This document shows positions 2,250 to 27,791 of a DNA stretch of 36,320 nucleotides, in pieces. The notes beneath the pieces were generated by a model, which saw only the letters and a list, made by a program, of their open reading frames with translations, ran no database searches and was not told the origin of the DNA. The DNA comes from a virus. How positions within the stretch are numbered: the first letter of the stretch is position 1; each line of letters starts with the position of its first letter. A program made the translations under genes and the position numbers. Location of the stretch: the IMG/VR virus record IMGVR_UViG_3300044960_000922, positions 1-36,320 of that record. The stretch is one strand, 5' to 3'.

Positions 2250-4841
2250 TTACACCTTCGCGAGGCGGGCACCGATGCTGCTGTTCGCGTGCGACGGGGC
2301 GTCGCCCACGTACAGGTAGAAGAGGCCGGCGTCCGCGCCGTCGCCCCAGCGGCCGCCGTGATAGGCGATTCGATCATCGGTGTTTGTATTACTCCAGAAA
2401 TAGTCTCCAGTGCTGCCATTCGATTGCGTACCGTCAACAGTCGCTGGCACAATGACACCAGCCGCAAGTAGCGTGGTGTTGAACGTGACCGGATAGCCGG
2501 AAGACGCAGGCGCAGACTGACTGGTGTTGATATAGCCTGCGGAGAAATCGCTAGTCGTGGTATTACCCGGCACGTTGTACTGCCAGCGCCACCACGTGCC
2601 TCCGTTACGCTTGAGGCCGTCCACCATCTGCCAGACGTTACCCCACAGCCCGACAATGCCACGCCACGTCGCTTGCGCCACATCGCTGGCATCAACATTC
2701 GCCGCGCTTGACGCCGACACGCGCCCCTGACCGATGAGTGACTGCATGTCCAGCCCGCCCATTTCGATTGATGCCAGCATCTGGATTGCGGCAAGGTCGT
2801 AGTAACTCCAGAGGCGAAAACCGGAGACGCCGCCGGTGTTGCGGGCGTAGGCTCGGCTGCGGGCCGTCGGGAAGTCCATGCTGACGTATGGCGACACACC
2901 GGCAACCGACTGCATTTTCGTGCCGTCTGTGCTCGCCTGATACTTCCCAACCCAGATTTGATTGAGTTCTGCGCCGCCAGCGCCAATGAATGCCGGATGA
3001 ACGCTGAAACCAGGCACAGGCTGATCAGAGATCATCCAGTAGGCTTTGCCGGCGTATGTACCGCTTGGTACCGTTCCCGCCTTGAAGTAAAACCTAGGGA
3101 TGCGCACCATCGCCTGACCGTCTATCGTTTGGTCGACGATCCCCGCGTAGGTTGGGTTGTTGTTGAACCACGCCGCGTTCGGCGAGACGGGGTTGAAATT
3201 CTCATCGACGCGCTGGTATTGCCCTGCACCGCCGCCAGTGGCGACTTGCACCAGGCCGATGATCGAGGCAAATTGCTGCTTGGTCGTGAACGTCACATCC
3301 GCCGACCATTCAGACCAGCCGAGCGAGCTTCCCTTGTGCCGCACACGGACAGCGTATTGCGTCTGCCCCGCTTGCAGCACCCCCGCCGGGACGACGTAGG
3401 AGGTTTTTGCAGTGGTCGTTTCGCCGGAATCATGGAGCGGGCTTGCCCAAGAGCCGGATGCCAGCCGGATTTGCCACTGGCTGGACAGGTGCGTATCCGC
3501 TCCGCCAGTGACGGCAAAAGCGCTCGACGTAATGGTCGGTTGCGCCGGGATGTCGGTCTGGCCGTTGGTCGGGCTGGTGATGCTGGGGGTGTTGACGTAG
3601 GCAAACGATGCCTTGGTCGTGAAGGACGACGCCGCCGACCAGGCGGACGTGAGGCCGGCAGAGTCTTTGACCTGTGCGCGCACGTAATAGGTCGTGCCGG
3701 TCGAGAGGATGCCGGCCGGCAAGGTGTAGGACTGCGCGTTGACCCAGCCGGAATCGTGCGCGACGGTGGCAAAGGTATTGCTCGTCGAGACTTGGAAGTG
3801 CGCCTGCGCGAAGGCGTTGCCAGCTGGCGACGAGAATCCGGCGATGGCCAGCGTGGGAGTCTCGCCGATGTCGGTCGCGCCGTTGGTCGGGTTGGAGATC
3901 GTGGGCGCATCCGGCGCAAGGCCTGGGTTCATCAGGCCGGTCAGGCCGGTGACGGTGCCGAGCGCGACGATGTGGAGAATGTCACACGCTTCGTCTTCGA
4001 CGACGATGCGTAAAAAGCCGTCGCCTTTCATCGGCACAGTGTATTCGTAGTCAGCAAACCCATCCGGGATGGGCGTATCCGGTGCGCCGACGCGCTTGTA
4101 GATCCACGGCCGCTCTGTCCAGTTGGTGGTGTAGGCGTCGCGGAAATAGAGCCGGACATTGGCCGAGTTGTGGCTGCGGCGGATCACCACTGCGCGGGTG
4201 TCGTTGTCTTCGCCGAGGTTGATGGTCTTGGAGATCCAGCGCGCGCCGGGCTGCGCACTGACGCCGCCACCCGTGCGCTGGGCGAAGGTCTGGCCGACGA
4301 TTTTTGCGGCAGAGCTCCAGTTGCGCAGCAGGTTGCTCGTCAGCCGCAGGCGCGTGGCCGAGAGCACCGCCGCGATGCGGATCATGGCGATCTCGCTACC
4401 TTCGACGAGGATGTAGTCCTGCCCAACCCGGAAGCCTGTGGTATCGGCCACGTCGATCGAGTCGTCGCCCATGACGCCGTTGATGACCGCCACTTCGCCG
4501 ATGTTGCGGAGGCGGTAGCCGTCAGCAAAGAGCTCGAAGGCGATCTTGCGGTTGCGGTAGAGCCAGTCGAGCGAGACGGCCTGCTGCACGCTGGCCGGGC
4601 TGGCGAGCCCTTGCAGCGTGTCGCCCATCAGCCCAAGACTGGTCATGATGTCGGAGATGGCCGCGCCGAGACTCGCTCGACCGGCGCGGGCGGCGGCTAT
4701 TTCGGATTCGGTGGCCGTCACCCTGCCGTCGAGGTTGGCGAAGTTTTCGTCGATTTCGACGTAGCGGGTGTTCCAAAGGCTTGGGACCGCTTCAGGTTCG
4801 TTGTTAGGGATTGGGGTGATTTGCGGATGAGGGATGGTCAT
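2250..4841 (-). CDS. Tail fibre / receptor-binding protein, DGR target with C-type-lectin-like end
   Basis: An 863-residue protein. Residues 1-300 form a phage-attachment and beta-rich region. Two fibronectin-III-like repeats follow (about 312-410 and 418-522; note the parallel PTNGATDI and PTNGQTDI, and SAWSAASSFTTK and SEWSADVTFTTK). The C-terminal ~340 residues resemble the FGE-sulfatase/C-type-lectin fold of DGR targets (GLWGNVWQMVDG at 731-742). The variable repeat covers residues 828-862, ending one residue before the stop. Compared with the TR-encoded version, eight of nine Asn and one Asp are changed (to R, D, D, Y, G, D, A, H, S). Inferred role: adhesin at the tail tip whose lectin-fold surface is diversified to change receptor specificity. 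It is followed by avd after 6 nt. Confidence 0.92.
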   Translation of the reverse strand: MTIPHPQITPIPNNEPEAVPSLWNTRYVEIDENFANLDGRVTATESEIAAARAGRASLGAAISDIMTSLGLMGDTLQGLASPASVQQAVSLDWLYRNRKIAFELFADGYRLRNIGEVAVINGVMGDDSIDVADTTGFRVGQDYILVEGSEIAMIRIAAVLSATRLRLTSNLLRNWSSAAKIVGQTFAQRTGGGVSAQPGARWISKTINLGEDNDTRAVVIRRSHNSANVRLYFRDAYTTNWTERPWIYKRVGAPDTPIPDGFADYEYTVPMKGDGFLRIVVEDEACDILHIVALGTVTGLTGLMNPGLAPDAPTISNPTNGATDIGETPTLAIAGFSSPAGNAFAQAHFQVSTSNTFATVAHDSGWVNAQSYTLPAGILSTGTTYYVRAQVKDSAGLTSAWSAASSFTTKASFAYVNTPSITSPTNGQTDIPAQPTITSSAFAVTGGADTHLSSQWQIRLASGSWASPLHDSGETTTAKTSYVVPAGVLQAGQTQYAVRVRHKGSSLGWSEWSADVTFTTKQQFASIIGLVQVATGGGAGQYQRVDENFNPVSPNAAWFNNNPTYAGIVDQTIDGQAMVRIPRFYFKAGTVPSGTYAGKAYWMISDQPVPGFSVHPAFIGAGGAELNQIWVGKYQASTDGTKMQSVAGVSPYVSMDFPTARSRAYARNTGGVSGFRLWSYYDLAAIQMLASIEMGGLDMQSLIGQGRVSASSAANVDASDVAQATWRGIVGLWGNVWQMVDGLKRNGGTWWRWQYNVPGNTTTSDFSAGYINTSQSAPASSGYPVTFNTTLLAAGVIVPATVDGTQSNGSTGDYFWSNTNTDDRIAYHGGRWGDGADAGLFYLYVGDAPSHANSSIGARLAKV
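2257..2359 (-). repeat. DGR variable repeat (VR)
   Basis: The VR lies at the extreme 3' end of the tail-fibre gene. Against the TR it has 11 substitutions in 103 bp, all at TR adenines: 7 A to G, 3 A to C, 1 A to T on the coding strand. None fall in the final 21 bp. A 5-bp inverted repeat (gtaat/attac, 2233-2237 and 2249-2253) begins 3 bp beyond the VR end, where the Bordetella phage DGR has a hairpin. The stem is short, so that match is only suggestive. Confidence 0.95.
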
Positions 4842-20569: not shown

Positions 20570-20917
20570 ATGTCCGCGCATGGTGTTTGCCCTATGGGCG
20601 GCCCGTGCGGGGAGCCGCAAGGCTCGCCGGTGCCTTCGTTCCGGTACGCCAACCCGTACGGTGCCCGCCCGCCCTGTTGGCGTGGGGCGGCGGGTAGTCA
20701 TAACCTGCAACGAAGGAGCAAATCATGCATACACTCACCACCGCCGAGTTCCTCGGCACCCCTGTGTCCATCCTCGACCATGCCGGACGGCGCTGGCTCA
20801 CCGCCCGCGACGTGGGGCGCTGCCTGGGCTACGAAGACCCGTCGCGCAAGGTCATCCACCTCTACCAGCGGCACGCCGACGAGTTCGGGCCGGACGACAC
20901 AGGTGTGCTCAATTTGA
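20570..20917 (+). CDS. Icd-like leader ORF upstream of and overlapping the antirepressor
   Basis: 115 codons in a frame different from the antirepressor. The first ~45 residues (MSAHGVCPMGGPCGEPQGSP, then SFRYANPYGARPPCWRGA) resemble short Icd/Ash-like peptides encoded ahead of antirepressors in P1/P4-type immunity regions. The rest, beyond 20725, overlaps ant and is low-complexity Ser/Pro/Arg. AGGAG lies inside the terminator stem about 13 nt before the ATG. In P1, icd and ant are translationally linked and c4 RNA acts on the icd start. Treat as a possible coding leader. Confidence 0.4.
   Translation: MSAHGVCPMGGPCGEPQGSPVPSFRYANPYGARPPCWRGAAGSHNLQRRSKSCIHSPPPSSSAPLCPSSTMPDGAGSPPATWGAAWATKTRRARSSTSTSGTPTSSGRTTQVCSI
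20633..20716 (+). promoter_or_regulatory. Leader RNA hairpin that can hide the antirepressor ribosome-binding site
   Basis: CCTTCGTT (20633-20640) is the exact complement of AACGAAGG (20709-20716), which contains the antirepressor Shine-Dalgarno AAGGAG start. ACGCCAAC (20646-20653) is the complement of GTTGGCGT further in. The two 8-bp helices nest, making a long hairpin. The C4-like RNA carries copies of the 3' arm sequences, so it would compete for the 5' arm. Confidence 0.65.
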
Positions 20918-21420
20918 GCACACCCGGCGGCACGCAAAACACCCGCATTTTCTCCCACACCGGCTGCATCCTGCTCGCCATGTTCGCCAACACGGCGCGG
21001 GCCAAGGACTTTCGCGCCTGGGCGAAGCGCGTGCTGGCCGGGGACAGCCTGCCCGCGCCCGCCGAGGCGGTGAATGCCTGGGGGCGGCGGGTCAAGGTCA
21101 ACCGCACCATCGAGCGGCAGGCGATGGAGCTCTACGTGGCCGGGCTGGAAACCGGCAGCATCGCCCGGCACCTGGGCATCAGCAAGTCGGCGGTGAAGAA
21201 GATGCTCTCGGGGCAGTACCGCTTCTCTCCCGCCTCGGGGCCGGATGAGACCACGCCCGCGCTGATCGCGGCGGTGGCTGCCGAGCGGGCGCGGCGGGAG
21301 CAAGACCGCATCGTCGATGAATACGTGGCCAGCGCCGTGAACCAGCGCTTGCAGCAGGCGCTCGAATCGGTGGGGCGGCAGATGCTGGCCGCGCTGCAAA
21401 GCGTGACGGTGGAGGGCTGA
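20725..21420 (+). CDS. Phage antirepressor (Bro-N type) with C-terminal HTH
   Basis: 231 residues. A Bro-N domain spans about 8-105 (ILDHAGRRWLTARDVGRCLG, SRKVIHLYQRHADEF, RIFSHTGCILLAMFA, KDFRAWAKRVLAG). A helix-turn-helix follows at about 132-165 (ERQAMELYVAGLETGSIARH, LGISKSAVKKML), then a charged coiled coil. AAGGAG precedes the ATG by about 8 nt. Such proteins relieve repression of prophages or satellite elements. It reads against the late operon, between F and G, with its own promoter. It looks like an acquired immunity/anti-immunity cassette. Confidence 0.87.
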   Translation: MHTLTTAEFLGTPVSILDHAGRRWLTARDVGRCLGYEDPSRKVIHLYQRHADEFGPDDTGVLNLSTPGGTQNTRIFSHTGCILLAMFANTARAKDFRAWAKRVLAGDSLPAPAEAVNAWGRRVKVNRTIERQAMELYVAGLETGSIARHLGISKSAVKKMLSGQYRFSPASGPDETTPALIAAVAAERARREQDRIVDEYVASAVNQRLQQALESVGRQMLAALQSVTVEG

Positions 21421-21763: not shown

Positions 21764-24031
21764 TTACGGCCGTTGAGCGCGGGGGGCGCGGCGAATCACC
21801 CGCATCGACTTGAGCGCCACCATGCGGCGCTTGTTCAGGATGCCGAAGGCGGCAACCTGCCGCTCGCCATCGAAGGCGCGCTCAAGCAGCAAGGTCTTTC
21901 CGCCATCTTCCACCCAAATCCTGTCAGGGGCCAGGATGATGGCAGGCAGTCGCGCATAATCCCCTGCCGTCACGGCGCGTTGCCCGCGCGGCTGCTCCAC
22001 GGCATCGTCGCCGTGCTCGGCGCGAACATGCAGCGGCGCGTATTTGTCAATCACCCAGTCGAACAACTCCCGCTTGAGTGCCTCGACGCCGGTCATCTCG
22101 GCGATGCGGGCGGACTCATCCATGGTGAGCAGCCCCATGGTACGGTATGGGTCTACCGGGCGGCCAGCCAGCGCGGCCTGGGCGTAGCGGCGCACGGCCT
22201 CGCCGGTCTCGGGCTGGGCACGCACGGCCCGCGCCAGCGCGTCGCGCATCTCGGCAGGCACGCCGCCCATGTAGGCTTTGGCCAGCTCATACGGCCAGGC
22301 GACGGTTTTCCCGGCAAAGGTGGCGGCCAGATCGGCCATCACCGGATCGAACCTGGAAAGCGCCCCGGCAATGGCCTTGATCGCTTCGGCCTTTCGCCCA
22401 GGCATATACCCCCACCCCTTGTCGATCCCAACCGGCTCTTTGGTCTTTGGGTCGATGGCGTCCCACCCGGCTGGAGGGGTGTTGTAGCCGGGGTCGCCGC
22501 CCAGGAGCTTCGCGCCTTCCCCTCCATTCGCGCCGACAACGCGGCAGCGGCAGTTACTTACAACAATACCACCCGCTAGAATAAGACCTGTGGATGTCGT
22601 GAAGTCGTAAACATGACCAGACCAATCGAATTTTCTGATCTCGATCACATGGTCGAGCAATACCTTTCCGGGGTTAGCGTCAAGCAACTGGCGCAGGAGC
22701 GCGGCTGCTGCCGTCAGGCCGTCGCTCGTGCACTGGCTCAGGCCGGGGTCGATCTGCGCGGGCGAAGCGATGCGAACCGGGTCGTCTGGCGGCGTGTCAA
22801 GCAAAGCGACGGCTGGCGCGAGCGCTACCTTGTCAAGGCGTGGGCCGCTGCCGATGCGCGCAACGCCGATGCCGAACGCATCGCCGTCAGCCTGTACCGC
22901 AGCGGATTGACCAGCGCCAGGCAGATCGCGCTGCGGCTTGGCATGTCCAAGCCAGCCGTTCAGGAGATGCTGCGACGCCGCGGGCTTGGCGAGGATCGAC
23001 GCATCCTCAGAATCGCGCATGGCCGTATGGGTGGCTTCAACCGGCAGTCCCAATGCGCCATCGAGCCGGATTTTGCCGAAGCCTTCACCGCGCGCGGACT
23101 CGACTATGTGCACCAGATGGCGATCGGCACCCGCAATGTGGATTTCGCCTTCCATACCGAGCGCGTCGCCGTGGAAATCGTGCGTCGCCACTGGAATGAC
23201 GCGAAATCCCTGCGCCGCGAGCGTCTCGAACAAATCTTCGGCGCAGGTTGGCGCATGTTCATCGTGTACGATCCAACTCAGCGGGGTATTGATGTCGGGC
23301 GATGCACAGAGCAGCTCGTCGCCCTGTTGGAGCGACTGCGCCGCGACCCATCCACGCCCGGTCAGTATTGGATGATTGGGGGTGACGGCGACCCTGTTCC
23401 CGCTGGCCGCGTGAATCTCCACGATTTCGCCCGCATACCAGACGCGCTGACCGAGTAGGGCATCGCAGCGCACTGGCGTGCTACCAGGGAAGCAATTCCA
23501 GCCATTCGGCGGGTAGTGGCTCTGCCAGAAGGGGTGGTCGGCGGGCAGCGTGAGGCCATTCCACGCCAGATGCTGCGGGCGCGGGTGGGCGACGCTATCC
23601 GAGTGCTTGTAGACCCAGTAACGGTAGCCAGCTTCCTTGAGCTGGGCGAGCCTCCCGGCGGCGTAGCTCGTGGCCAGATTGGTCTGGTATATCACCCTTG
23701 TCCGCCACGCCACCCCCTTGCCGCCCTTGTCGTCCGGCGTCTTGCGGTCGTCTCCCGTCCAGCCCGCCCAGCCGTGGCGGCGGACGATCTCCAGAAACCG
23801 CCCGCGAAACGCCTCCAGCGTCTCGCCCTCGGCAATCGCCTTGTCCACAGCGGCGGCAAGGTCGGCAAGCAGGTCGGCCTTGGCGGCGCCGGCTACCATG
23901 AAGGCGCGGTCGTGGGCGCTCTTCTTGATGTCGTCCCACTTTTTCGTGGGCACGAGATTGCCGAGCTTCCCCCGGAAAAACGCCACCTGCTCATCGAACG
24001 GGCGGCGAAAGACGACGGCGGGGTCAGGCAT
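21764..24031 (-). CDS. F: Head morphogenesis protein F (Mu gp30-like), interrupted by an intein
   Basis: 755 codons. The N-extein (1-179) has PFDEQVAFFRGKLGNLVPTK, TRVIYQTNLATSYAAGRLAQ and HYPPNGWN. The intein is residues 180-493. The C-extein (494-755) resumes with CRCRVVG, joining to PPNGWN-CRCRV, the conserved Mu-F junction, and continues with the later domain (VDPYRTMGLLTMDESARIAE; TAGDYARLPAIILAPDRIW). The spliced protein would have 441 residues. gpF is a minor head protein needed in capsid assembly. Its weak AGGG ribosome-binding site lies about 8 nt before the ATG. Confidence 0.93.
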   Translation of the reverse strand: MPDPAVVFRRPFDEQVAFFRGKLGNLVPTKKWDDIKKSAHDRAFMVAGAAKADLLADLAAAVDKAIAEGETLEAFRGRFLEIVRRHGWAGWTGDDRKTPDDKGGKGVAWRTRVIYQTNLATSYAAGRLAQLKEAGYRYWVYKHSDSVAHPRPQHLAWNGLTLPADHPFWQSHYPPNGWNCFPGSTPVRCDALLGQRVWYAGEIVEIHAASGNRVAVTPNHPILTGRGWVAAQSLQQGDELLCASPDINTPLSWIVHDEHAPTCAEDLFETLAAQGFRVIPVATHDFHGDALGMEGEIHIAGADRHLVHIVESARGEGFGKIRLDGALGLPVEATHTAMRDSEDASILAKPAASQHLLNGWLGHAKPQRDLPGAGQSAAVQADGDAFGIGVARIGSGPRLDKVALAPAVALLDTPPDDPVRIASPAQIDPGLSQCTSDGLTAAAALLRQLLDANPGKVLLDHVIEIRKFDWSGHVYDFTTSTGLILAGGIVVSNCRCRVVGANGGEGAKLLGGDPGYNTPPAGWDAIDPKTKEPVGIDKGWGYMPGRKAEAIKAIAGALSRFDPVMADLAATFAGKTVAWPYELAKAYMGGVPAEMRDALARAVRAQPETGEAVRRYAQAALAGRPVDPYRTMGLLTMDESARIAEMTGVEALKRELFDWVIDKYAPLHVRAEHGDDAVEQPRGQRAVTAGDYARLPAIILAPDRIWVEDGGKTLLLERAFDGERQVAAFGILNKRRMVALKSMRVIRRAPRAQRP
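22553..23494 (-). other. Intein coding segment in gpF (314 codons)
   Basis: The N-terminal splicing block begins at Cys1 (CFPGSTPVRCD), followed by block B with the TxxH motif (AVTPNHPILTGRGWVAA). The C-terminal blocks are GHVYDFTTSTGLILAGGIVV and the terminal SN, followed by Cys+1. The penultimate residue is Ser rather than the usual His. The middle ~210 residues contain no LAGLIDADG or HNH motif in this frame and look like filler; the DNA here encodes a different ORF on the plus strand. The insertion point is the most conserved tract of F, as usual for inteins. Confidence 0.93.
22613..23458 (+). CDS. Putative homing endonuclease encoded antisense inside the intein
   Basis: 281 residues. 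The N-terminal half has two HTH-like units (QYLSGVSVKQLAQERGCCRQ at 17-36; YRSGLTSARQIALRLGMSKP at 95-114). The C-terminal half resembles Vsr-like/PD-(D/E)XK homing nucleases: E151, NVDFAF with D177, RVAVEIV with E188, then HW (193-194) and RRERLEQIFGAGWRMFIVYD. The whole ORF lies within the intein on the other strand. TAGAAT at 22577-22582 could be its -10; its ribosome-binding site is weak. It would supply homing for an intein that has no in-frame nuclease. The assignment is by motif reading. Confidence 0.75.
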   Translation: MTRPIEFSDLDHMVEQYLSGVSVKQLAQERGCCRQAVARALAQAGVDLRGRSDANRVVWRRVKQSDGWRERYLVKAWAAADARNADAERIAVSLYRSGLTSARQIALRLGMSKPAVQEMLRRRGLGEDRRILRIAHGRMGGFNRQSQCAIEPDFAEAFTARGLDYVHQMAIGTRNVDFAFHTERVAVEIVRRHWNDAKSLRRERLEQIFGAGWRMFIVYDPTQRGIDVGRCTEQLVALLERLRRDPSTPGQYWMIGGDGDPVPAGRVNLHDFARIPDALTE

Positions 24032-24710: not shown

Positions 24711-24905
24711 TCAAGGTTTGCGCCTGGCATGGTCGCGCTCCCAGTCGTCGCGGCACTCGACCGAGCACCAGCGCCTGGGCTTTTTGATGCGCTCGCCGCA
24801 CCACAGGCACTGGCCGGTGGGCGCGGGGCCGGAGTCGCGGCGTAGGCGCAAGAGGCGCGCCATTTCCGCCTCCAGACGATCGGTTGCGATGTCAGCTTCG
24901 TCCAT
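24711..24905 (-). CDS. Small zinc-ribbon protein
   Basis: 64 residues from ATG 24905, overlapping the portal stop by 14 nt. The N-terminal helix EADIATDRLEAEMARLLRLR is followed by a four-Cys zinc knuckle, CLWCGERIKKPRRWCSVECR, and a basic end. The Cys spacing recalls small DUF2116/TraR-like zinc proteins in phage head operons. Nucleic-acid or protein binding is plausible; no function is known. Confidence 0.75.
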   Translation of the reverse strand: MDEADIATDRLEAEMARLLRLRRDSGPAPTGQCLWCGERIKKPRRWCSVECRDDWERDHARRKP

Positions 24906-26448
24906 CTCCGCCCTCGCTCTCCACATGCGCCAGATACCGCCCGGCAAGCTCCGCAGCGGCAAAGCCAAGCTCCATCACGCGCGCCAGATCCTCGGTGGGC
25001 AAGTCGCCATAGGCGGCGAGCAGCGCATCGCGCAACTCTGGCAACGACTGGGCCTGCTCGACGATCTGGCGCACACGCTCCATGATCTGCGCCCAGGCGG
25101 GTTCAGCCTCGACCTCCATCCGGTCGGCCTGTAGCCCAGGCACGTCGATGGCGTCCTCTTCGGTGTTGCTTGTCGCCTGCAATGCGTGCACGGCGCGCGA
25201 CTGCGCCGCCGGCGTCGTCTCGGCAGCAGGCTGCTGCGCAGCGCCGCCGATCACCGCTTCGCCATCTTTCGGCTCGGGGATGGCAAACCGCTCGCGCACC
25301 CAGGCTTGCGGGATGACGACGCCAGATGCGGCGAGCTTTTGCACCTGATCGGCGAGCGCCGCCATGTCCTCCGGTTCCTCGACAACGAAGGCAAAGCGCG
25401 GAAGCGGCGCAGCGTCGCCCAGGTTCAGGCGCACCAGCGGCGCGACGAGGTCGCGGCGGATGGTCTCGGCCAGCGACCTGGCGTCGGCGCGCATGATGTC
25501 GGCGCGCACTTCCTGATGGACTTTCGCCTGCGCGAGCGACGAGCCGTCGTCGGTGGTCATGGTCTGCCCCAGCACCGCCTTGCTCACCTGCCGGTCGAGG
25601 TAGTCGATGAGCTTGTGGTAGAGGTCGGCGCTGGCCGACTTGCTGCCGGACTCCACCAGCTCCAGCATCATCTCCTGCGGGATCACCGCCGCAGCGTCGC
25701 TACCCAGCTGGAACGCCGCCTGCTTGAGCACCGCGATGTCCTCGGGTGCCGCGCCCTGGTGGTATTTGCCCACGCGGATGGGCTGGCCGAAGAGCTCGCA
25801 GAAGCGCGCCCAGTCGCGCAGCGCGTAGCTCTTGAAGACCCACGCCCACAGCGCCGAACGCGCCAGCCCCCCTTGCAGCGGGATGCCGCTCATCAAGGGC
25901 GGCTTGTGGAAGATGAACTTGTAGGGCGGCAAAGGCTGGCCATCCACGCTGCCGTCGTAGAGGTGCAAGAGGCTGCCTGTGTCGCGGTCGAAGGTGAACC
26001 AGTGCGCCTCGCGCGGGATGATCTCGGCAGGCCGCCAGAGGCTACCCGTCTCCCAGACGATCTCGGCGACCGCGTAGCCCTTCGCCACCGCGTCCATGAG
26101 GTGCGCGGCCAGACTGAAAACATCGAGGTCGGTGAGCACTTCCGTGACCAGCTCGGCGGCGCGCTTCGCCTCCCGGCTGTCATCCGCCGGCTGCACGTCC
26201 CACGGCAGGCCCGCCACCGCGAGCGTCCGGGTTTGCAGCACCGCGCGGTAGTGGAGGTCTTTTTCCTTGATGTCGTCGGCGGCGAGCATGAACTCCCGCG
26301 CATAGCCCATGGCCGCGTTGCGCAGAATCTCGGCCACCATGGCCGGCGTCATGCTGGCCAGCGGCCGCCACTGCCACACCTGGCGCAAGCCCACCTGCGC
26401 GGGTCGCGCGAGCTCGGCGGTCAAGTCGGTTTTTTTCGCGGTCACCAT
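24892..26448 (-). CDS. Portal protein (Mu gp29-like, DUF935)
   Basis: 518 residues. Visible elements are QVWQWRPLASMTPAMVAEIL, YRAVLQTRTLAVAGLPWDVQ, DAVAKGYAVAEIVWE, ALWAWVFKSYALRDWARFCE and LGQTMTTDDGSSLAQAKVH, the DUF935 pattern. Dodecamers form the DNA entry channel of the head. The ATG at 26448 was chosen because AGGAG lies 8 nt upstream; it overlaps the terminase stop by 7 nt. The C-terminal ~90 residues include one copy of the dispersed 13-bp motif. Confidence 0.94.
   Translation of the reverse strand: MVTAKKTDLTAELARPAQVGLRQVWQWRPLASMTPAMVAEILRNAAMGYAREFMLAADDIKEKDLHYRAVLQTRTLAVAGLPWDVQPADDSREAKRAAELVTEVLTDLDVFSLAAHLMDAVAKGYAVAEIVWETGSLWRPAEIIPREAHWFTFDRDTGSLLHLYDGSVDGQPLPPYKFIFHKPPLMSGIPLQGGLARSALWAWVFKSYALRDWARFCELFGQPIRVGKYHQGAAPEDIAVLKQAAFQLGSDAAAVIPQEMMLELVESGSKSASADLYHKLIDYLDRQVSKAVLGQTMTTDDGSSLAQAKVHQEVRADIMRADARSLAETIRRDLVAPLVRLNLGDAAPLPRFAFVVEEPEDMAALADQVQKLAASGVVIPQAWVRERFAIPEPKDGEAVIGGAAQQPAAETTPAAQSRAVHALQATSNTEEDAIDVPGLQADRMEVEAEPAWAQIMERVRQIVEQAQSLPELRDALLAAYGDLPTEDLARVMELGFAAAELAGRYLAHVESEGGDGRS
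25171..25183 (+). repeat. 13-bp dispersed motif, copy 3 (portal)
   Basis: TGTCGCCTGCAAT with the extended GCGTGCACGGCG flank. Confidence 0.6.
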
Positions 26449-27791
26449 CCTGCCCACTCCTGGGCGCGTCCGCGCCCGTCAAGATCGAGATCGTCAAACG
26501 CCCGGCCAAAACTCCGCCGCGCCACCGACTCATACCCGTAAGCGGGGCGCGCCTCCGACGCCGACGCGCACGCGAGCGCCAGCGCCCAGAAGCGGTCGGC
26601 GTGGCTGCCGCCGTCCCGGTCGGCCAAAAGACGCGGCACGCCGCCCACGCCCGGCTCCATGCGCACGGCCCGGAGGTCGTCGATCAGCGCCTGCCGTCGC
26701 GCAGGCTCGATCTGCAGCAGCAGCCGCCGCGCCTGTAGCCGGTCTTTGAGCGCCACGGCGAGGTCGAGCTTACGTGCCGGCGTGAAGATCACCCCTTCGA
26801 TCCGGTAGCTCCCATGTCGTCGCCGCGCCTCCTCCACCGGCATCTCGCCCATCCCGGTCTGGTCGATAAGCGCCCGCACGACGCGGTATTGGCGCATCAC
26901 GCGGTCGAGCTCTGCGAGCTGCGCGGCAAAGCTCTGCCCGCGCATCTCGATGAGCTCGCGCAGCACCAGCGCGTCGCCCGCTTCCTCGAGCACAGCGATC
27001 ACCGAGAGGTCCCCACGCGCGGCGATGTCCATGCCCACGTGGCAGGGCGCGCCCGCATAAGCGCCGGGGATTGTCGCCTCCAATGCCGACAGAATCTCAT
27101 CGTAGGTGAGCCACTCGCGCCCGGCGCGGTCGAGGAATACGCACTCGAACTCCTGCGCCCAGGTGTCGGGGTCACCGGCGGCGCGGCGCAGTTCCTCGAT
27201 GTCGCGCGGAAGCCCATCGGACACGGCGTCATAGATCGTCACCACGTGCCGGGAAAAGAGCCCGCCCAAGCCCGTGGTCATGATCTCGTGGAACATGTCG
27301 CCCACGCCGTTGGGGGTGGAAATCACCCTGAGTTTCAGCCCCGGTTTCGACACCACCGGCACCAGCGCCCGCCACAGCGCCCGGTTGTCCTTGTGGTGGG
27401 CAAATTCGTCGAGGATGAGGTTGTCGCTCATGCCGCGCGCAGTCTCTGGCTTGGCGGCGATCGCCCGCACGTAGGAGCCGCCGGGGAGCTTGACCATGTG
27501 CGCCATCTCGTCGGCCTCAAAGGGCACATCGAGCGCCTCGAACATGGCACCAATGGCTTTCAGATGCAGCGCCGCGCCGTTTCTGATCGCGTCGATCGCC
27601 CGGTCGCGCGAGATCGAGAGGATCGTCCAGCGCGCAACCCGCCCAGCGGCCCCGGCCTCCAGACAATCGAGCACCGCCTCCAGCGTGGTGGTGAAGGTCT
27701 TGCCCGTCTGCCGGCTCCACATCGCCACTTTCCAGCGGGAGGTGTCGGTGAGATACCGGCGCTGGTAGGGGTAGATGATGGGGGAGGTCAT
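26442..27791 (-). CDS. Terminase large subunit (Mu gp28-like)
   Basis: 449 residues. Near the N-terminus, RWKVAMWSRQTGKTFTT is a Walker-A-like ATPase motif, and NLILDEFAHHKDNRALWRAL holds the Walker-B/DE. LRVISTPNGVGDMF is the coupling motif. The C-terminal nuclease has GMDIAARGDLSVIAV, VRALIDQTGMGEMPVEEARR and ADRFWALALACAS. It pumps and cuts DNA during headful packaging. It overlaps the methylase stop as ATGA. A near-copy of the 13-bp motif lies in it. Confidence 0.95.
   Translation of the reverse strand: MTSPIIYPYQRRYLTDTSRWKVAMWSRQTGKTFTTTLEAVLDCLEAGAAGRVARWTILSISRDRAIDAIRNGAALHLKAIGAMFEALDVPFEADEMAHMVKLPGGSYVRAIAAKPETARGMSDNLILDEFAHHKDNRALWRALVPVVSKPGLKLRVISTPNGVGDMFHEIMTTGLGGLFSRHVVTIYDAVSDGLPRDIEELRRAAGDPDTWAQEFECVFLDRAGREWLTYDEILSALEATIPGAYAGAPCHVGMDIAARGDLSVIAVLEEAGDALVLRELIEMRGQSFAAQLAELDRVMRQYRVVRALIDQTGMGEMPVEEARRRHGSYRIEGVIFTPARKLDLAVALKDRLQARRLLLQIEPARRQALIDDLRAVRMEPGVGGVPRLLADRDGGSHADRFWALALACASASEARPAYGYESVARRSFGRAFDDLDLDGRGRAQEWAGW
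27072..27084 (+). repeat. 13-bp dispersed motif, near copy (terminase)
   Basis: TGTCGCCTCCAAT, one mismatch from the consensus. Confidence 0.4.

Follow-up and report, generated by a model that had tools for sequence, protein, structure and literature searches.

Does an intein in a phage head gene carry its mobility enzyme on the strand opposite to its splicing domain? To our knowledge, known inteins hold the homing endonuclease in frame, as part of the same polypeptide. We addressed this question in a 36,320-base virus record of a Mu-like phage (66% GC), called the window here, in which the gene of the gpF/MuF minor head protein is interrupted by an intein and a long open reading frame (ORF) lies antisense to that intein (Table 1). 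The reading that we favor, at a probability of roughly 0.85, is that of a mobile intein whose homing endonuclease would be read from the strand antisense to the splicing domain, in the complementary frame and with its codons in register. The product of the interrupted gene (755 aa) matched Pfam Phage_Mu_F (4.3e-9) and PBECR3 (4.2e-8), and its match to phrog_220 (minor head protein) had an E-value of 4e-74.

Table 1. Features of the intein-interrupted gpF gene, its predicted antisense nuclease gene and the portal gene, in window coordinates (a slash marks a splice junction).
Feature	Position	Strand	Basis or remark
Portal_Mu gene	24892-26457	-	Pfam
gpF/MuF minor head protein gene, intein-interrupted, C-terminal PBECR3	21764-24031	-	Pfam and phrog
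Intein, 314 aa (residues 180-493 of the gpF product), junction GWN/C...SN/CRC	22553-23494	-	Splicing blocks, predicted fold
Intein block B, TPNH	23372-23383	-	Motif
DFHGD motif of the sense frame, complementary base for base to antisense VAVEI	23165-23179	-	Appears constrained in both frames
Intein linker, residues 125-260	22715-23122	-	Predicted disordered, pLDDT 22-34 over most
Intein blocks F and G (HVYDF...VVSN); His codon 22613-22615 = antisense ATG	22553-22615	-	
Leader of antisense gene, tcgtgaagtcgtaaac before ATG	22596-22612	+	Ribosome-binding site weak
Putative antisense nuclease gene, 281 aa, N-terminal HTH units and C-terminal Vsr-like nuclease	22613-23458	+	Codon-aligned with intein frame
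First HTH, residues 12-56	22646-22780	+	Pfam HTH_58 6.6e-7; pLDDT 84-87 over residues 11-50
Second HTH-like unit, residues 88-124	22874-22984	+	Several weak HTH family matches; model pLDDT <50
Vsr-like nuclease domain, residues 146-247	23048-23353	+	Profile matches 3hrl, 3r3p, 1cw0; VIA Z ~10
E151, predicted active-site helix glutamate	23063-23065	+	33/37 members
D177, predicted catalytic aspartate in NxD	23141-23143	+	37/37 members
E188, predicted catalytic glutamate in VAVE	23174-23176	+	37/37 members

In the sense frame, the insert carries the splicing blocks Cys1, TPNH, HVYDF and SN/C with a Cys as the +1 nucleophile, and Pfam Intein_splicing matched the gpF product with E-values of 2e-7 to 2.3e-6, while a Pfam search found no endonuclease family in the intein's own frame. 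The AlphaFold (AF2) model of the intein was confident in its N- and C-terminal parts, the top Foldseek matches of this model were inteins, as expected of a Hint fold, and the 136-residue linker between the two parts faces the helix-turn-helix (HTH) part and the first part of the nuclease domain of the antisense gene. The penultimate residue is a Ser where a His is usual, a point against the favored reading. An alternative is that the sense insert is an unspliced in-frame passenger tolerated by gpF, so that only the antisense nuclease would matter. There is a precedent in the ShiLan insertion of phage methylases, which hides an out-of-frame HNH and has no splicing blocks in the excerpted text of its description (PMC11855218), and a disordered linker would suit such a passenger. 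We nevertheless regard this alternative as very improbable, because Cys1 and the terminal Asn were invariant among 15 aligned inteins, TxNH and HVY.L were present in nearly all loci, a +1 Cys followed every junction that was found, and both the predicted fold and the Pfam match are those of an intein. From these features we infer that the intein would splice itself out and that gpF would stay functional.

The opposite strand carries an ORF of 281 codons that begins with ATG and spans 846 of the 942 intein bases. Codon for codon, it is the exact complement of the intein frame (antisense positions 1/2/3 are sense positions 3/2/1), and only the sense codons TTA, CTA and TCA produce a stop in it. 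The initial annotation had described both the intein, with its blocks and its lack of an in-frame endonuclease, and the opposite ORF; the coordinates of both proved exact, and its term "splicing linker" for the sense strand was apt for a segment that is predicted to be disordered and seems to evolve as a passenger. At 66% GC, an open antisense frame taken alone lacks significance, and the case therefore rests on homologs. It could be a chance open frame in GC-rich DNA, any conservation of which would be an echo of the sense intein through the exact codon complement. Long antisense ORFs are indeed numerous elsewhere in the window, the second codon positions are common to the two complementary frames, and outside the intein none of the 40 Leu/Ser codons of gpF is one that would stop the antisense frame.

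Homologs were found by tblastn with the antisense ORF in 82 phage records (20-31% identity among the matches listed) and with a second family member in 121 records. Wherever the strand could be checked, the listed matches lay opposite head or minor capsid genes, the exception being an Acinetobacter group. About 45 loci with an antisense protein opposite a muF intein were examined (47 assembled), from phages of Gordonia, Mycobacterium, Rhodococcus, Pseudomonas, Salmonella, E. coli, Cronobacter, Klebsiella, Edwardsiella, Vibrio, Idiomarina and Aggregatibacter, from a Helicobacter prophage, and from plasmid records of a Chloroflexota bacterium and a Streptomyces. The hosts of the antisense/intein pair thus spread over Gammaproteobacteria, Actinobacteria, Chloroflexota and Helicobacter. 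Both frames were free of stops in all 47 assembled loci. Among 23 representatives, antisense-stop Leu/Ser codons numbered 0/1101 in the overlap versus 139/1150 in the rest of the same genes, where the zero holds by construction because the overlap is defined via its open frame. The unexpected part is the length of the open stretch in phages of 42-53% GC, in which other antisense frames had up to 31 stops; this speaks against a frame left open by chance.

As to selection on the two frames, the most variable site in the overlap was sense codon position 1, i.e., the antisense wobble position. Between the window and its nearest relative (L001), the differences at sense positions 1/2/3 numbered 36/8/11 in the overlap versus 58/48/132 in the rest of the gene (Fisher p 1.2e-8), and 43 sense residues differed but only 17 antisense residues. 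Seven further pairs showed a matching reversed pattern, and for the eight pairs pooled the ratio of position 1 to position 3 was 468:291 in the overlap versus 500:1150 in the rest (p 1e-47). When dN/dS was counted by overlap class, the window pair had an antisense value of 0.18 (0.08-0.36); the remaining pairs for which it could be estimated ranged from 0.04 to 0.29, and one pair had no doubly nonsynonymous change. Antisense dN/dS was well below 1 also opposite the free sense linker. For the sense frame, the window pair gave 1.03 (0.39-3.06) and the other pairs that yielded a value 0.16-0.60, figures that may be biased because antisense positions 1 and 2 can differ in constraint. These substitution patterns indicate that the antisense frame is under purifying selection, and across homologous inteins it is conserved, being the better conserved of the two frames in the overlap. 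The initial annotation had asked for a codon-substitution analysis of both frames and had staked its reading on conservation of the plus-strand frame in homologous inteins; in the analysis, substitutions followed the antisense codons, with the codon-position pattern of the rest of the gene reversed.

The two halves of the overlap differed in this respect. Antisense wobble sites had changed in 88/300 cases opposite the sense linker versus 35/399 opposite the N-terminal splicing half, suggesting that the linker is a passenger and that both frames appear constrained in the N-terminal splicing half, which lies opposite the catalytic half of the nuclease. The motif DFHGD falls in this region and is, across members, the complement of antisense VAVE(V/I). 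Most of the sense changes seen within it (H to Y, F to L, G to S) leave the antisense residue as it is, but the middle codon almost always encodes His or Tyr in sense, which suggests that both frames matter there.

The nature of the antisense protein was examined by profile and structure searches. Besides the HTH matches, Pfam gave a weak match to the Vsr-like family REase_MTES_1575 (E 0.009, residues 154-217). A phmmer search of the PDB with the single protein gave no match, but an 11-member family profile matched 3hrl (3.4e-7), I-Bth0305I (3r3p, 2.4e-5) and Vsr (1cw0, 0.006) with its C-terminal half and HTH structures with its N-terminal part, a result hard to reconcile with a chance frame. 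The AlphaFold model had pLDDT values mostly of 82-92 for residues 150-260 and low confidence for residues 65-147; Foldseek ranked Vsr and I-Bth0305I at the top with modest E-values, and VIA-align gave Z scores of 9.6-10.2 to 3hrl, Vsr and I-Bth0305I. The HTH units and Vsr-like core proposed in the initial annotation are thus supported, and where it had allowed that structure prediction might give no nuclease fold, the predicted fold came nearest to Vsr and I-Bth0305I, in agreement with the profile. I-Bth0305I is a Vsr-like homing endonuclease of the EDxHD type, encoded in a group I intron. It resembles the window protein in its predicted catalytic fold (Z 9.7, 93/97 residues aligned), in joining a modular DNA-binding part to a Vsr-like nuclease and in its phage homing context, whereas the window protein has its HTH units before the nuclease and its gene lies antisense within an intein. 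The His that gives the family part of its name is not shared by all antisense members, since it occurs at the EDxHD-aligned column in 14/37, in a gappy part of the alignment. On profile and model, we call the antisense protein a predicted Vsr/EDxHD-like nuclease, for which we do not claim strict EDxHD membership. PADLOC gave nothing convincing.

Members of the nuclease family also exist outside the overlap, as judged from the Acinetobacter phages IME285, BUCT629 and P1068, where the homolog is an ordinary gene that is convergent with, and just downstream of, an intein-less muF gene. The strand opposite to this free-standing homolog is full of stops, and it overlaps no other gene. A non-overlapping homolog beside an intein-less muF rules out a coding echo; together with the reversal of codon positions it leads us to reject a chance ORF or sense echo, which we regard as extremely improbable. 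The free-standing relative suggests how the composite element may have originated. The nuclease cassette was missing in most of the 82 matching Acinetobacter phages. Between IME285 and NJ02 the distal flank was identical, and the adjoining end of muF was about 56% identical compared with 93-100% farther away, as expected for a converted tract, although replacement by ordinary recombination is possible too. Between IME285 and P1068 the nuclease gene was identical and the whole 2.1-kb stretch was 98% identical. A co-conversion tract was also considered around the intein of phage Snoke, where 60-nt windows suggested one; the candidate was dropped, as the longer profile of Snoke versus fEg-Eco19 was mosaic throughout.

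Uninterrupted, intein-free homologs of the window gpF were found in Thiobacimonas and Rhodobacter phages (58% identity), and the Snoke gene has one of 98% identity. In the Atlantibacter family, the full element was present in only 1/295 genomes; three weaker matches covered part of the nuclease model only, and the one inspected was another REase-like protein. A genome scan with the window antisense protein as the query found no relative. By presence and absence, the insert is sporadic among relatives and lacking at the same site in some. These data bear on the possibility of a genuine antisense protein that derives from a nuclease but has lost homing, serving as a repressor or persisting as a remnant only because the intein DNA is constrained. 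Its strong HTH units would fit a repressor, and the catalytic half is constrained by the sense frame. We consider this unlikely, since the predicted catalytic D and E are invariant in 37/37 members while the number of HTH units varies, since antisense dN/dS stays low even opposite the free linker, and since the insert is sporadic. The antisense nuclease thus probably spreads the intein as its mobility enzyme, a role that the presence/absence pattern and the converted Acinetobacter flank fit.

Under the favored reading of a mobile intein with an antisense homing endonuclease, the intein would excise itself and gpF would work, while an antisense transcript would allow the nuclease to be made. 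The nuclease would recognize and cut intein-less muF DNA at the codons of the conserved CRC motif, and repair from the occupied copy would spread the segment in full. Opposite the free linker, predicted to be disordered, lies the HTH half of the nuclease gene; the catalytic half faces the N-terminal splicing half. As for expression, the antisense start lies opposite the block F His in 23/26 members (ATG 19, GTG 3, TTG 1). The block F Leu is CTC in 18/21 cases, whereas CTC makes up 30% of the Leu codons of the same genes overall (p 2e-7 in a binomial test that ignores relatedness), placing GAG or GGAGG about 12 bases upstream of the antisense start. The ribosome-binding site is strong (GGAGG or GAGG) in many homologs and weak in the window, and a scan of the window gave no match to a sigma-70-like promoter for the antisense gene. 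In L028 (2327) and L030, block F has Gln instead of His, so the antisense start becomes TTG and is kept.

It is likely that these loci form an ancient, widely distributed class of phage inteins in which each codon of the homing endonuclease is the exact complement of one in the splicing protein; block F would double as the nuclease start codon and, in many members, as its ribosome-binding site, DFHGD would mirror the active-site strand VAVEV, and the class may stem from the capture, by an intein, of a free-standing homing endonuclease gene that lay downstream of muF and convergent with it. Classical inteins (PI-SceI; LAGLIDADG) likewise join a splicing domain and a mobility enzyme in one insert of an essential gene, but here the endonuclease would be a separate protein read from the other strand, and disorder is predicted for the sense linker. 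The IME285 homolog resembles a free-standing homing endonuclease beside its target, convergent with an intein-less muF of divergent flanking sequence, and differs from the window nuclease, which lies inside the intein on the other strand.

In the literature searched, which did not include a 2025 preprint by Gosselin and others on actinobacteriophage inteins, we found no antisense endonuclease in an intein. That preprint ("Actinobacteriophage Inteins: ... Non-Canonical Architecture") may describe Gordonia members, which would pre-empt part of the present account. Overlapping frames are frequent in actinobacteriophages according to the excerpts of PMC11855218, which cite the preprint. The same excerpts describe the ShiLan domain and the Pacc40 insertion as hiding an out-of-frame HNH in phage methylases, a "third frame" (PMC11855218). 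The likeness lies in a stop-free in-frame insertion that conceals an endonuclease in another frame; the excerpts speak of an HNH, of no splicing domain and of no opposite strand, whereas the window has intein blocks and an antisense frame (PMC11855218). Inteins have been annotated in capsid morphogenesis genes of the phages Snoke, LSPA1, UPWr_S and vB-Eco-KMB36; they are the same element, and the excerpted texts make no mention of an antisense nuclease (PMC6776784, PMC8425127, PMC11162368). The locus would thus yield two conserved proteins, a splicing domain and a probable mobility enzyme, from opposite strands of one DNA in phages whose hosts belong to several bacterial phyla. It offers a natural system in which to study coding on both strands and the expression of a selfish gene against the direction of late transcription. 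Some inteins thought to lack a homing endonuclease may have one on the opposite strand, and annotation pipelines overlook this putative nuclease family in more than 100 sequenced phages.

Several minor observations were made. The PBECR3 (Barnase/EndoU-like nuclease) domain at the gpF end (21791-22111, minus strand, E 4e-8) resembles the tails of MuF polymorphic toxins; it had no match in the near relative L001, whose locus stops at the contig end. Downstream of gpF and on the opposite strand lies a gene that resembles a Bro-N antirepressor and ends in an HTH (20725-21420, plus strand, Pfam Bro-N 1.8e-10). In Salmonella phage PK1 (L037), two annotated hypothetical proteins (2444-3253 and 2730-3176) equal or overlap the antisense nuclease frame and face the head morphogenesis gene, and a small number of further Salmonella phage records have similar entries. 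The antisense proteins of L012 and L028 have extra HTH modules that match a longer sense linker, suggesting that gain of a module lengthens the intein. Finally, L008, L033, L036, L042 and L043 have related inteins with antisense nucleases at the junctions HN/CTI, HN/CIF, SN/CGW, KN/CRA and SN/CGH of minor head genes, and the family therefore seems to have switched its target site.
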